Assembly (NCBI GenBank): GCA_947303825.1
Contig: CAMYZK010000020.1
Span: 1 to 15,899 of the forward strand
DNA: 15,899 nt
Direction: 5' to 3'
Source: an uncultured Prevotella sp.
Lineage (GTDB): Bacteria > Bacteroidota > Bacteroidia > Bacteroidales > Bacteroidaceae
Positions 43 through 15,899 of this stretch are shown one piece after another. The notes under the pieces are model-generated. The model was not told the DNA's origin. It ran no database searches and saw only the letters and a list, made by a program, of their open reading frames with translations. The number at the start of each line of letters is the position of its first letter. The first letter of the stretch is position 1. A program made the translations under genes and the position numbers.

Positions 43-50
43 AAGTTGAA

Positions 51-68
51 TTAAAGGAGTTAAAGACA
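51..68 (+). repeat. element A 5' arm, two 9-nt units
   Basis: TTAAAGGAG followed by TTAAAGACA (period 9). The reverse complement matches 480-497 with a single mismatch. The arm ends 8 nt before the four-helix ATG. The AAGGAG inside it is too far from the ATG to act as a normal ribosome binding site. Confidence 0.75.
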
Positions 69-76
69 TTACTTTG

Positions 77-454
77 ATGGCGACATATAGTTTTGAAAAC
101 GTTATTACCTGGCAAAAGGCTCACGACTTTGCCCTGATTGCATACAGGACATGCCAAAAGTTCCCTGTTACAGAACGTTACGGACTATGCGACCAATTTC
201 AAAGGGCAGCAGTATCAATCTCTGCAAAAATTGCCGAAGGTTACAAAAAAATCAGCAAACCAGATAAACTCCGCTTCTTCAACATAGCCCAAGGGAGTTT
301 GGAAGAATGCAGAAACTACATACTTTTAGTAAAAGATTTAGGTTACATATCTACAGAAGAGTTTGAGAATCTTCGTTTTTCTCTTGAAGAGACAAGCAAG
401 TTTTTAAATTTATATTGTAAAGGCATTATCAATAATAATGGAGTAAAAGACTAA
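77..454 (+). CDS. four-helix-bundle protein (S23/IVS-encoded family), copy A
   Basis: A 125-residue, almost entirely helical protein. The family signature is seen as a first helix 'ENVITWQKAHDFALIAYRT', then 'LCDQFQRAAVSISAKIAEGYKK' (split here: LCDQFQRAAVS / ISAKIAEGYKK) around residues 37-58, a helix with SLEECRNYILL, and 'DLGYISTEEFENL' before the last helix. This is the family first found in 23S rRNA intervening sequences; its relative Avd is a pentameric nucleic-acid-binding accessory of diversity-generating retroelements. The molecular role of stand-alone copies is not established. I chose ATG at 77; TTG at 74 is possible. The last residues GVKD and the stop are encoded by or next to a copy of the flanking repeat unit. 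The gene is visibly richer in A+T than parB downstream, which suggests separate ancestry. No reverse transcriptase is nearby. Confidence 0.85.
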   Translation: MATYSFENVITWQKAHDFALIAYRTCQKFPVTERYGLCDQFQRAAVSISAKIAEGYKKISKPDKLRFFNIAQGSLEECRNYILLVKDLGYISTEEFENLRFSLEETSKFLNLYCKGIINNNGVKD

Positions 455-492
455 GGATAGCAAGGAACGACACAACTATTGTCTTTAACTCC
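440..492 (+). repeat. 3' hairpin of element A (third repeat copy against 3' arm)
   Basis: GGAGTAAAAGAC at 440-451 is complementary at 11 of 12 positions to GTCTTTAACTCC at 481-492, with a 29-nt loop. The ascending strand encodes the last residues of the four-helix protein and the loop starts at its stop codon. The descending strand is also the partner of the 5' arm at 51-68, so the two pairings are mutually exclusive. Confidence 0.55.
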
Positions 493-515
493 CTTAACTC
501 CTTTAACTCCTAACT
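480..515 (+). repeat. element A 3' arm, tandem 9-nt units
   Basis: TGT followed by CTTTAACTC, CCTTAACTC, CTTTAACTC and a partial CTAACT: an array of period 9 in the opposite sense to the left arm. It stops 7 nt before the parB ATG and therefore forms most of the parB 5' leader. No promoter box is seen between it and parB. Confidence 0.75.
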
Positions 516-13394: not shown

Positions 13395-14588
13395 TTATTT
13401 CAGCAGGTTCATCGTGTCGGTAGCAATCATCAGCTCCTCGTCGGTGGGGATGACGACAACTTTCACCTTCGAGTCATCGGCCGAGATAACGGCCTCCTCT
13501 CCACGCACATTGTTGCGCTCGTCGTCGAACTTCACACCAAGGAACTCCATGTTCTTGCACACCTCAGAGCGCATGGCCACCTGGTTCTCGCCCACTCCGG
13601 CGGTGAAGACAATGACATCGAGGCCACCCATGGCAGCTGCGTAGGCACCAATATACTTCTTTATGCGGTAGAAGTACATGTCCTGAGCCAGCTTGGCACG
13701 TGCGTCACCGCTCTTGGCAGCGTTCTCCACGTCGCGCATGTCACTGGAGCCGCCCGTCAGACCGGCCACGCCGCTCTTCTTGTTCAGCAGATTGCTCATA
13801 CCGTCGGCATCGAGACCCAGCTTCTTCTCTATGAAGGTGATAGCACCGCCGTCGATGTCGCCGGCACGGGTACCCATCATCAAGCCTTCGAGGGGGGTGA
13901 GACCCATCGAGGTGTCTATGCACTTCCCGTCGACGACAGCAGCTATCGAGCCTCCGTTACCCACGTGACAGGTCACCATCTTGGTGCCCTCGGCAGGAAT
14001 GCCCAGGAACTCACAGGCACGTGCCGACACATAGCGGTGGCTGGTGCCGTGGAAGCCGTAGCGACGAATGCCGTACTTCTCGTACAGCTCGTAGGGGATG
14101 GCATACATGAATGCCTTCGGTGGCATGGTCTGATGGAAGGCGGTATCGAAGACACCCACCTGTGGAAGACCGGGCATCAGCTCCTTCACGGCGTTCACAC
14201 CCTTCAGGTTGGCTGGGTTATGAAGGGGAGCCAGGTCAGAGCACTTCTCAAACTCCTTCAGCACCTCATCGGTCAGGACAACGCTCTTGTTGAACTTCTC
14301 ACCGCCGTGCACCATGCGGTGACCCACGGCATCAATCTCGTCAAGGCTCTTGATGACTCCTATCTCTGGGTCGGTGAGCAGGGAGAAGATAAACTTCACA
14401 CCCTCGGTATGCTCGGGGATGTCGTGCATTATCTGGCGTCTCTCCCCATTGGCCAGCTTCACCTTCACGAAGGCACCGTCGAGGCCTACGCGCTCGGCAC
14501 CACCACTGGTCATAACGGACTTGTCATCCATGTTGTAAAGTGCATATTTAATAGAACTGCTGCCACAGTTAAGAACTAAAATTTTCAT
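13395..14588 (-). CDS. ackA: acetate kinase
   Basis: A 397-residue cytosolic enzyme of the usual family length. It makes acetate and ATP from acetyl phosphate and ADP, the substrate-level phosphorylation step of fermentation. Conserved blocks are MKILVLNCGSSSIKYALY (1-18), HRMVHGGEKF, FDTAFHQTMP, GFHGTSHRYVS, HVGNGGSIAAV, MGTRAGDIDGG and FTAGVGENQ, all intact. The partner gene pta lies upstream on the same strand but is separated by the 499-bp element B rather than a short gap. The downstream arm of that element ends 7 nt before the ackA ATG and so replaces its normal leader. Confidence 0.97.
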   Translation of the reverse strand: MKILVLNCGSSSIKYALYNMDDKSVMTSGGAERVGLDGAFVKVKLANGERRQIMHDIPEHTEGVKFIFSLLTDPEIGVIKSLDEIDAVGHRMVHGGEKFNKSVVLTDEVLKEFEKCSDLAPLHNPANLKGVNAVKELMPGLPQVGVFDTAFHQTMPPKAFMYAIPYELYEKYGIRRYGFHGTSHRYVSARACEFLGIPAEGTKMVTCHVGNGGSIAAVVDGKCIDTSMGLTPLEGLMMGTRAGDIDGGAITFIEKKLGLDADGMSNLLNKKSGVAGLTGGSSDMRDVENAAKSGDARAKLAQDMYFYRIKKYIGAYAAAMGGLDVIVFTAGVGENQVAMRSEVCKNMEFLGVKFDDERNNVRGEEAVISADDSKVKVVVIPTDEELMIATDTMNLLK

Positions 14589-14595
14589 CTTTTCT

Positions 14596-14637
14596 AAGTG
14601 AAGAGTGAAGAGTGAAGAGTGAAGAATTTGCTACCGC
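14596..14637 (-). repeat. element B downstream arm, four GTGAAGA heptads plus core
   Basis: Perfect heptads occur at 14598-14604, 14605-14611, 14612-14618 and 14619-14625, then the core ATTTGCTACCGC. The reverse complement matches 15053-15094 with one mismatch. In operon sense the array reads TCTTCAC and directly precedes ackA. Confidence 0.9.
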
Positions 14638-14662
14638 AATTCTTGGCTTTCCACTCTTCACT
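14611..14662 (-). repeat. local 3' hairpin of element B
   Basis: AGTGAAGAGTG (14611-14621) pairs with CACTCTTCACT (14652-14662) and AAGAATT (14622-14628) with AATTCTT (14638-14644), giving 18 pairs with one 7-nt bulge and the core TGCTACCGC in the loop. In operon sense it begins 3 nt after the four-helix stop. It competes with the long-range arm pairing. Confidence 0.65.
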
Positions 14663-14665
14663 CAG

Positions 14666-15049
14666 TTAATTATTTGATTGGTTATTCTTTTTAATTGTTT
14701 TTATTGATGAGACCAACAATGCAATGACCTCACTTAAGTCACCTGCCATGCTTTCAAATCCTTCCGTCGAAAGGTATCCTGTGTCATGTAGCAGGTTGAG
14801 CCAGTTCATAGTCTCATTAGCCTCTTTAAGAGCAATGTGAAGTTTGAAAGCGAAGTCAGAAGAACTCTGTGCGAATTCCGACTCATGAACATTTGCAGAG
14901 ATGGAGGTTCCAGAACGTAAGACCTGCTTATAGACGGACTGTAGTTTCCAGTCATTATCAGTGAAATGAAGGAACATTATCACTATACTTATGGCAAAGT
15001 TGTAACTTTTGATGTGTAATGGTCCTCCTTCTCTATTATAGTGTATCAT
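14666..15049 (-). CDS. four-helix-bundle protein (S23/IVS-encoded family), copy B
   Basis: A 127-residue helical protein of the same superfamily as the one at 77-454 but clearly divergent from it. The signature is KSYNFAISIVIMFLHF (first helix), then VYKQVLRSGTSISANVHESE (39-58), FAFKLHIALKEANETMNWLN, LHDTGYLSTEGFESM, and a last helix EVIALLVSSIKTIKK. The motif LRSGTSISANVHE is the subfamily hallmark. The ATG at 15049 is only 3 nt inside the upstream arm. No promoter box is visible, so expression probably depends on the pta transcript. Base composition is visibly richer in A+T than ackA and pta. The biochemical role is unknown; nucleic-acid binding is possible by relation to Avd. Confidence 0.85.
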   Translation of the reverse strand: MIHYNREGGPLHIKSYNFAISIVIMFLHFTDNDWKLQSVYKQVLRSGTSISANVHESEFAQSSSDFAFKLHIALKEANETMNWLNLLHDTGYLSTEGFESMAGDLSEVIALLVSSIKTIKKNNQSNN

Positions 15050-15052
15050 AAC

Positions 15053-15094
15053 GCGGTAGCAAATTCTTCACTCTTCACTTTTCACTCTTCACTT
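15053..15094 (-). repeat. element B upstream arm, overlapping the pta stop
   Basis: The core GCGGTAGCAAATT is followed by heptads TCTTCAC, TCTTCAC, TTTTCAC, TCTTCAC. The pta stop codon TGA (15089-15091 on the minus strand) and the preceding AAG codon fall in the array, so the repeat supplies the end of the pta reading frame. Confidence 0.9.
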
Positions 15095-15899
15095 TTTGGC
15101 GTCCATGGCCTGGCAAGCGGTGATGGCTACCAAGTAATAGATGTCGTCGACGGAGCAGCCACGGCTGAGGTCGTTCACGGGACGGGCGATGCCCTGCAGT
15201 ATTGGTCCTACGGCGGTGGCACCGGCCAGGCGCTGCACCAGTTTGTAGGCAATGTTTCCCACTTCGAGGCAGGGGAAGACAAGGACATTGGCGTTGCCGG
15301 CAATCTCTGAGCCGGGGGCCTTCTTCTTACCTACAGCAGGCACGAGGGCGGCATCAGCCTGAAGCTCGCCGTCAATCTTCAGCGTGGGGTCGAGCTCCTT
15401 GGCCAAACGAGTAGCCTCTACCACCTTGTCTACCACCTCATGCGAGGCGCTGCCTTTCGTAGAGAACGAGAGCATGGCCACACGCGGGTCGGCGAAGCCG
15501 GCCACACTCTTTGCTGTCTGCGCGGTGCAGACGGCAATCTGCGAGAGCTGGTTGGCATCGGGCATGGGGGTCACGGCAACGTCGCCAACAACGAGGACAC
15601 CGTTCTCGCCGTATTCGGGCTTGTCGGTAATCATCAGCATGGCACCGCTCACACAGGTGATACCAGGAGCACACTTGATAATCTGCAGAGCAGGGCGCAG
15701 CGTCTCGCCTGTCGTCGACAGAGCACCGGAAATCTGACCGTCGGCACCCTCGGTCTTGATAATCATACAGCCTAAGTACAGGGGATTCTTAATCAGTTTA
15801 CGGGCCTCCTCGATGGTCATACCCTTCGACTTGCGAATCTCGGCCAGTTTCTCGGCCAGTTCCTCGCTCTTGTCATAGTTCTCTGGATCGATGAGGGTT
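15089..15899 (-). CDS. pta: phosphate acetyltransferase, partial (C-terminal part)
   Basis: About 270 residues are visible; the reading frame runs off the right edge (beginning TLIDPENYDKSEELAEK at the window end), so the ATG at 15820 is internal. The enzyme converts acetyl-CoA and phosphate to acetyl phosphate, the substrate of AckA. Conserved blocks include MTIEEARKLIKNPLYLGCMI, GAMLMITDKPEYGENGVLVV, DVAVTPMPDANQLSQIA, PRVAMLSFSTKGSASHE, DGELQADAALVPAV, KAPGSEIAGNANVLVFP and NIAYKLVQRLAGATAVGPIL. The stop codon lies inside the repeat arm of element B, with the final KK encoded at the junction. Confidence 0.96.
   Translation of the reverse strand, partial: TLIDPENYDKSEELAEKLAEIRKSKGMTIEEARKLIKNPLYLGCMIIKTEGADGQISGALSTTGETLRPALQIIKCAPGITCVSGAMLMITDKPEYGENGVLVVGDVAVTPMPDANQLSQIAVCTAQTAKSVAGFADPRVAMLSFSTKGSASHEVVDKVVEATRLAKELDPTLKIDGELQADAALVPAVGKKKAPGSEIAGNANVLVFPCLEVGNIAYKLVQRLAGATAVGPILQGIARPVNDLSRGCSVDDIYYLVAITACQAMDAKK

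Follow-up and report, generated by a model that had tools for sequence, protein, structure and literature searches.

The window, that is, the whole stretch of 15,899 nucleotides analysed here (contig C20 of the genome of an uncultured Prevotella sp.), contains a small gene lodged between pta and ackA and enclosed by two inverted copies of a heptad-rich sequence. The question is whether such a unit is a mobile insertion, a settled operon gene or a gene that dropped into a repeat made by the host. The source genome (G000) is a MAG of 2.63 Mb in 385 contigs with 70.7% completeness, and when AckA is compared, the closest relatives with a name belong to Prevotella, most of them MAGs from the ruminant gut.

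The inverted repeat between pta and ackA

The two arms, 42 nt each, were complementary at 41 of 42 positions (98%) with a spacing of 415 nt, and among 68 inverted pairs detected in the window theirs is the longest (Table 1). Tandem heptads occupy positions 14597–14625 and 15065–15093, about four heptads per arm, and a single ORF of 127 residues lies between the arms, starting 3 nt inward of the arm edge at 15053. The near-perfect heptad arms and the sole 127-residue gene had been recognised in a preliminary description, made from the sequence alone, and both were recovered at the same coordinates.

Table 1. Coordinates of the window elements and of related units at other loci
Feature	Position or locus	Strand	Basis or remark
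IVP gene, 127 aa, PF05635/TIGR02436 four helix bundle	14666..15049	-	Profiles, 2rld, purifying selection in pta-ackA orthologs
5' (upstream) arm in gene sense: four purine-rich heptads plus AATTTGCTACCGC, outer end with pta stop codon	15053..15094	-	Also conserved in L092, L111, L143
3' (downstream) arm, repeating the 5' arm in inverted form; 7 nt separate its end from the ackA start codon	14596..14637	-	
Possible smaller local hairpin at the 3' arm (14603–14628 with 14638–14663, 85%)	14603..14663	.	Could form in place of the long-range stem
ackA (acetate kinase), downstream host gene	13395..14588	-	Sequence reading; 94–97% identical relatives in 80 Prevotella loci
pta, host gene upstream of the unit; 3' part only, truncated where the window ends	15089..15898	-	Name by sequence reading
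Second IVP gene, ATG at 77 (mechanical ORF from TTG 74), with a parB-like gene downstream	77..454	+	PF05635 E 1.2e-34, TIGR02436 111 bits; parB name by reading
Second element, 5' arm, GGAGTTAAAG-type unit	48..74	+	85% complementary over 27 nt; score 17 (L001)
Second element, 3' arm	474..500	+	Inverted pair with 48..74; nonamer array 483–511
GxxExxY (PD-(D/E)XK-type) genes in inverted arms at pta-ackA, often 9-nt units, e.g. GTGAATAAT	L070, L076, L094, L099, L107, L113, L117, L118, L124, L127, L138		
CRISPR-operon IVP units	L434 1504–1860; L440 1501–1869; L441 1492–1851		

The gene matched the profiles PF05635 (E 6e-20; 71.9 bits against a cut-off of 33.8) and TIGR02436 (85.3 bits against a cut-off of 24), which upheld its suggested kinship to the 23S rRNA intervening-sequence proteins (IVP), and 2rld was its sole PDB sequence match at the E 0.01 threshold (E 1.2e-25). 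A Xanthomonas relative of the protein is said to form a pentameric ring of four-helix bundles. When the locus was folded as RNA, the arms were predicted to pair over their full length, at −175.6 kcal/mol compared with −118.3 ± 6.2 kcal/mol for 100 shuffled sequences, none of which folded as well (z = −9.2). The giant RNA stem with the gene as its loop, which had been proposed earlier, is thus predicted by folding. The arm score of the locus (L004) was 39.5, against a median of 8.5 for control ORFs. The inverted repeat enclosing an IVP gene between pta and ackA was confirmed as real.

The second IVP element lies at the far end of the window from the pta-ackA locus, and its arms differ from those of the first. 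Six PF05635 matches were identified in the source genome, four of them with inverted arms and each of these with a different unit (GTGAAGA; GTGTAGA/GTTTAGA; AATGAGA-like; GGAGTTAAAG). One of the four, L003, carries a stop codon inside the gene, and two weak matches within long ORFs showed no arms by flank scoring. A search of the 2.63-Mb assembly with the arm heptads and core, as the preliminary description had suggested, returned 133 copies of the dimer GTGAAGARTGAAGA (0 for the reversed-pattern control) and 62 copies of the core TTTGCTACCGC (2 for the control). Because of these genome-wide copies, the GTGAAGA arms are members of a dispersed repeat that is not private to the site.

Two further repeat-rich places were observed. 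At L006 1001–1986 (G000:C50), a 310-aa open frame with a weak PF05635 match lies amid dense GTAGGT-type repeats that run both ways. In the window itself, a short heptad run (AAGAGTT, 1421–1445) overlaps the end of the parB-like gene and forms a gene-free array within coding sequence.

Inverted arms across the IVP family

Arms were scored as inverted matches between the 250-nt flanks of a gene, with a threshold of 14 or more, and two controls were used, namely ORFs in the vicinity of ackA with a length of 100 aa or more, and flanks swapped between loci. Inverted arms were found at 88 of 95 Prevotella IVP loci, compared with 12 of 707 control ORFs (five of these 12 being IVP genes themselves by tblastn matches) and 68 of 937 swapped flanks. 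The 95 loci comprise the six matches of the source genome, 29 obtained by automatic cutting and 60 chosen in order from a ranked list, from which G049:C62, near a contig end, was left out and to which G053:C4 was added; further matches exist. Across Bacteroidota, 18 of 30 IVP loci were armed (6/286 swapped flanks), as were 22 of 30 Prevotella loci of a different gene family, GxxExxY (15/292 swapped flanks), both sets being the best-scoring loci, cut automatically. Plasmid IVP loci of Cyanobacteria, Azospirillum lipoferum and Gemmatirosa were armed in 16 of 17 cases (33/272 swapped flanks), this set representing 17 of 20 records, some of them near relatives of one another. Loci below the threshold numbered 7/95 in Prevotella, 12/30 in the phylum set and 1/17 on plasmids. 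The subfamily of the window gene, IVP-A, reached an arm score of at least 22 at 18 of 18 loci.

The arm units are tandem and mostly 7 nt long, also 8–12 nt, and plasmid examples include AGTCAGG, GGGAACA, TGTAGGG, GGTGACA, GACAGAG and GGGCAGGA. Chance as the origin of the arms was ruled out by the control ORFs and the swapped flanks. This comparison of sequences shows that in the sets tested IVP genes usually come with inverted arms, and the window unit is one case of this widespread layout. PF05635 was present above its cut-off in 47 of 60 Prevotella-genus genomes and in 113 of 148 genomes of the phylum.

The position of the elements was also analysed. Both neighbours could be called at 82 of the 88 armed Prevotella loci, and 74 of these 82 had the IVP gene in sense between co-directional genes, the others being antisense (2), convergent (5) or divergent (1). 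Ordinary genes were arranged in this way in 578 of 1068 cases (Fisher p 1.3e-11), a background made of gene triples in which native control genes likewise share the operon direction. When only co-directional flanks were considered, 74 of 76 IVP genes were in sense, compared with 125 of 152 short genes (p 6e-4). The median distance of the outer arm edges was 1 nt to the upstream stop codon and 10 nt to the following start codon (75 loci). The upstream arm was purine-rich at 72 of the 88 armed loci, where Shine-Dalgarno (SD)-like words were found in 51 upstream arms versus 9 downstream arms. Fifteen annotated plasmid loci comprised 12 that were sense and co-directional, two that were antisense between co-directional genes (L439, L446) and one that was convergent.

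Some of the plasmid units were located inside CRISPR operons of cyanobacteria, as cas10-[IVP]-cmr3 in Picosynechococcus PCC 7003 and as cas6-[IVP]-cas4 on plasmids of Anabaena 90 and Pseudanabaena galeata.

Between genomes, protein identity correlated with arm similarity (Spearman 0.302 over the 88 armed loci; the highest of 500 permutations gave 0.104). Arms were common to 59% of the 54 between-genome pairs with at least 70% protein identity and to about 1% of the 1541 pairs below 25%, and below 70% identity arm similarity was only loosely tied to the protein. The arm units differ between sites and match within a site; the two arms of one element share variants at 20.1 of 21 nt, compared with 19.0 when permuted, a value reached in 0 of 5000 permutations (21 elements). 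From these comparisons, arms tend to follow the IVP subfamily across genomes. The possibility, considered earlier, that the arms are unrelated background repeats was borne out in one part, as they do belong to a genome-wide repeat, and failed in the other, given the excess of armed IVP loci over control ORFs (88/95 vs 12/707) and the link to the subfamily. Capture of host repeats by the gene was likewise considered and is disfavoured by the arm-protein correlation and by arms moving to other sites.

Occupancy of the pta-ackA gap and the origin of the unit

The gap between pta and ackA was readable in 79 relatives, and their comparison, proposed in the preliminary description, separated 17 gaps above 200 nt from 62 gaps of 6–163 nt, the latter made up of 42 gaps of 6–54 nt and 20 of 76–163 nt. 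Inverted ends scoring at least 14 were present in 15 of the 17 long gaps and in 12 of the 20 intermediate ones. The long gaps contained five IVP genes, eleven GxxExxY genes (one truncated) and one remnant; the eleven match the L117 protein, which corresponds to TIGR04256/PF13366, and all 16 genes point with the operon. On a tree of pta plus ackA from 78 relatives and the window, IVP-A required four Fitch changes for its four tips (the window, L092, L111 and L143), IVP-B two and GxxExxY nine, the length classes in the all-state count being our own choice. L137, without pta, was kept out of the gap table and L109 out of the tree. Among the 79 relatives the gaps are too diverged for an exact empty-site partner or a target duplication to be established.

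GxxExxY is a second gene family in an armed setting and occurs in the same pta-ackA gap in other species. Gene-free palindromic inserts, for example rich in CCCTCCC/GGGAGGG, were observed in the 20 gaps of 76–163 nt (L072, L087, L101, L104, L129, L142 and others). The 143-nt gap of L126 resembles a shrunken IVP unit, a MITE-like remnant with arms and only an IVP-like start. The gaps of L077 (34 nt) and L115 (54 nt) carry lone arm-like heptad runs with neither gene nor partner arm, that of L115 including the core TTTGCTACCGC; such runs may be remnants left by a lost unit, or else raw material.

A search of 299 genomes placed IVP-A relatives in 22 genomes besides the source, 10 of them beside ackA, 11 elsewhere and one undecided at contig ends. 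Twenty of the 22 share at least 66% identity over nearly the whole length, two are partial, and the count excludes a further partial match in G310 (67% over 76 residues). The copies elsewhere whose flanks were read occupy several gene junctions, some common to two to five genomes, and all carry (G/A)TGAAGA arms; genes downstream of these sites read as argH-like and acyl-CoA-dehydrogenase-like (names by sequence reading). Confinement of IVP-A to one homing site was ruled out by the 11 of 22 placed relatives found elsewhere. In G039, G352 and G267, ackA is 64% identical to that of the window and the IVP 73–74%, by which horizontal arrival of the IVP at pta-ackA is only suggested, as their ackA may itself be foreign. 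Comparison of the loci shows that one IVP subfamily occupies several sites and that one site holds different elements across species. The long and short gaps and the presence of the subfamily at other sites agree with the earlier description of the unit as compact and as an insertion into an operon of protein genes.

These observations are probably best explained by a mobile-type unit, an IVP gene in inverted heptad arms that was inserted in sense in the operon and that would be the protein-operon counterpart of the 23S rRNA intervening sequence (IVS). An unlikely alternative is a settled, non-mobile operon gene, inherited vertically and often lost, whose arms act as a processing or translation switch for IVP and ackA. 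It would account for the sense orientation, the purine-rich upstream arm with its SD-like words and the recurrence of some sites in several genomes. It also fits the four pta-ackA IVP copies, in which the arms are 95–96% identical while third codon positions are 48% identical; silent sites are saturated in all but one pair, for which dN/dS was 0.05, and by these substitution patterns the IVP gene in the pta-ackA orthologs is under purifying selection. The sense orientation, the conserved arms and the selection on the gene also count in favour of the mobile-type unit. A settled gene is harder to reconcile with one subfamily at several different gene junctions, with four scattered IVP-A tips among relatives whose gaps are empty or otherwise filled, and with the occurrence in this gap of unrelated GxxExxY genes flanked by inverted arms of a similar kind.

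The dispersed arrays bear on a second alternative, namely that the gene drops into heptad palindromes made by the host, for example by polymerase slippage, and is itself unconnected to the repeats. Outside the known IVP loci, 25 of 94 arrays of 7/8-nt type in the source genome (357 kb) and 16 of 75 in G028 (400 kb) matched the arms of the genome's own IVP elements, whereas foreign arm sets matched 5.6 and 3.7 on average and 0 of 200 draws reached the observed number in either genome; arrays in coding sequences were kept in, and four IVP loci per genome supplied the arms. Gene-free arrays are thereby shown, by sequence comparison, to match resident IVP arms more than foreign ones. In 24 non-independent genomes, the density of intergenic arrays with periods of 7, 8, 14 or 16 nt rose with the IVP count (Spearman 0.57, p 0.004), and that of other periods did not (−0.27), the counts including weak matches and 20 of the 24 genomes being sampled over 16–60 kb only. 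Exceptions were G059 and G046, with IVP genes and no 7/8-nt array in 40 kb, and G018, without IVP and yet with four arrays in 39 kb. GxxExxY genes were rejected as makers of the 7/8-nt arrays, as they showed no correlation with density (0.03, 24 genomes).

That the arms are part of a genome-wide repeat, and that short pta-ackA gaps likewise hold heptad-like runs, would be expected if the palindromes came first, and slippage was an earlier guess at the cause of heptads (Mrazek 2007, cited in the accessible text of PMC4679880 and PMC4692102). However, the arms follow the IVP subfamily across genomes and go along to other sites, the two arms are kept matched within an element, and it is the 7/8-nt arrays whose density tracks the IVP count, which makes this origin still more doubtful than a settled gene. 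An assembly artefact or a chance inverted repeat in one MAG has next to no probability in spite of the fragmented, incomplete source genome, since the window unit recurs at pta-ackA in three named MAGs (L092, L111, L143) and the gene-in-arms layout is also found on plasmid records described as complete.

As a mobile-type insertion, the IVP unit would depend on read-through transcription of the operon. The purine-rich upstream arm would supply the IVP start region while the transcript is young, and once the downstream arm is made both arms would fold into a long stem closing off the gene. RNase III, which is known to cleave rRNA IVS (PMC4990558, in its accessible part), may then cut this stem, and the pta and ackA messages would be parted at little cost. 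The IVP protein, as a ring, might bind the units repeated in the arms around its gene, in the form of RNA or of single-stranded DNA, and could help arm units to spread with or without the gene. Counting against this explanation are the loci below the arm threshold, the two armless weak matches of the source genome, the two antisense plasmid loci, the genomes whose array density departs from their IVP count and the loose tie of arms to protein below 70% identity. What the accessible text on Coxiella says of its S23 protein, which is apparently not made, also counts against it (PMC4990558).

A wider reading is put forward tentatively, as a possibility that we do not yet favour. The IVP would be a dedicated partner of heptad DNA, within one gene-repeat system in four phyla (Bacteroidota, Cyanobacteriota, Pseudomonadota and Gemmatimonadota) that spreads without a known transposase, and the rRNA IVS would be a special case of it. 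The spread might involve an RNA stage, which is proposed because the elements are sense-oriented in operons. The long-standing question of why heptads predominate among the simple repeats of bacteria would then be largely answered.

Relation to known systems

The unit joins three subjects that the accessible literature has so far treated apart, namely the IVP/S23 proteins of no known function, rRNA intervening sequences and bacterial heptad repeats. The function of the widespread IVP family becomes directly testable as binding, copying or protecting its own arm unit. The results also give a warning that small operon genes of ordinary appearance can be unit insertions, those within the CRISPR operons of certain cyanobacterial plasmids among them. 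What looks like an overlooked mobile unit may also explain the origin of many short bacterial DNA repeats.

The pieces are already known in the accessible literature, and the whole combination was not found there. In the available text of open papers on IVS and heptads (PMC4990558, PMC4679880, PMC4692102, PMC8934634), heptad arms within protein operons were not connected with IVP genes, and a prior description is possible in subscription papers or preprints, which lay outside this scope. The heptamers TAACTGA, GGGAATC and GGGGAYT form intergenic tandem 7-nt arrays in Beggiatoaceae, Cyanobacteria and Xanthomonas, and two xanthomonads have about 70–75 convergent heptad pairs each, according to the parts available (PMC4679880, PMC4692102). 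The same parts describe no evident transfer mechanism for TAACTGA (PMC4679880) and generally no association of the Xanthomonas heptads with mobile elements (PMC4692102), and, unlike the window arms, these repeats are not stated there to be tied to IVP genes (PMC4692102, PMC4679880).

Insertion sequences and MITEs resemble the unit in their inverted ends and in presence or absence at a site, but the ends of the present unit differ from copy to copy much more strongly than terminal repeats usually do, and no transposase domain was detected in the enclosed gene by the Pfam and NCBIfam profile search. The DGR proteins Avd/bAvd are related by profile to the second window gene (77–454), with bAvd (PF22296) at 25 bits against a cut-off of 40 and DivGenRetAVD (NF033474) at 34 bits against 80; the IVP gene between pta and ackA had no Avd match among the same profiles, and on inspection no reverse transcriptase was noticed in the window. 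This weak kinship, below the cut-offs, hints at an RNA stage of spread and proves nothing.

REPIN-RAYT systems consist of one gene, coding for an HUH transposase, flanked by inverted copies of a genome-dispersed, species-specific repeat, the repeats being short tagged palindromes. As far as the accessible accounts go, the window unit is alike in having a gene within inverted copies of a dispersed repeat, and its arms do match dispersed repeats of the genome, as the array matches and the heptad and core counts indicate. It differs in that the gene belongs to PF05635 and does not code for an HUH transposase, and in that the repeats are tandem heptad arrays; the Pfam and NCBIfam profiles gave the IVP family and sub-cut-off PRK12275 subfamilies, and no HUH (Y1) transposase, for the enclosed gene.

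The closest likeness is to the 23S rRNA IVS with an S23/IVP ORF of Coxiella and Leptospira, which, in the accounts available, share the protein family, a unit of 400–500 nt, complementary ends that pair into a stem around an ORF-bearing loop, and the sense orientation. The Coxiella IVS is cleaved by RNase III, has a 28-bp stem and carries tandem heptamers adjoining the S23p start, a likeness to the window arms, according to the accessible text (PMC4990558). The window unit has such complementary ends with an ORF in the loop in its predicted fold. It differs by lying between pta and ackA and not in an rRNA gene, no Rfam family reaching its gathering score anywhere in the window, by arms that consist wholly of heptads plus a core, and by cognate gene-free arrays dispersed in the genome. 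One defining feature of the 23S IVS, a place within a 23S rRNA gene, and one of REPIN-RAYT, an HUH transposase gene, were looked for and not found, and for this reason the window unit is, as classified by sequence, neither of the two but an IVS-like variant.
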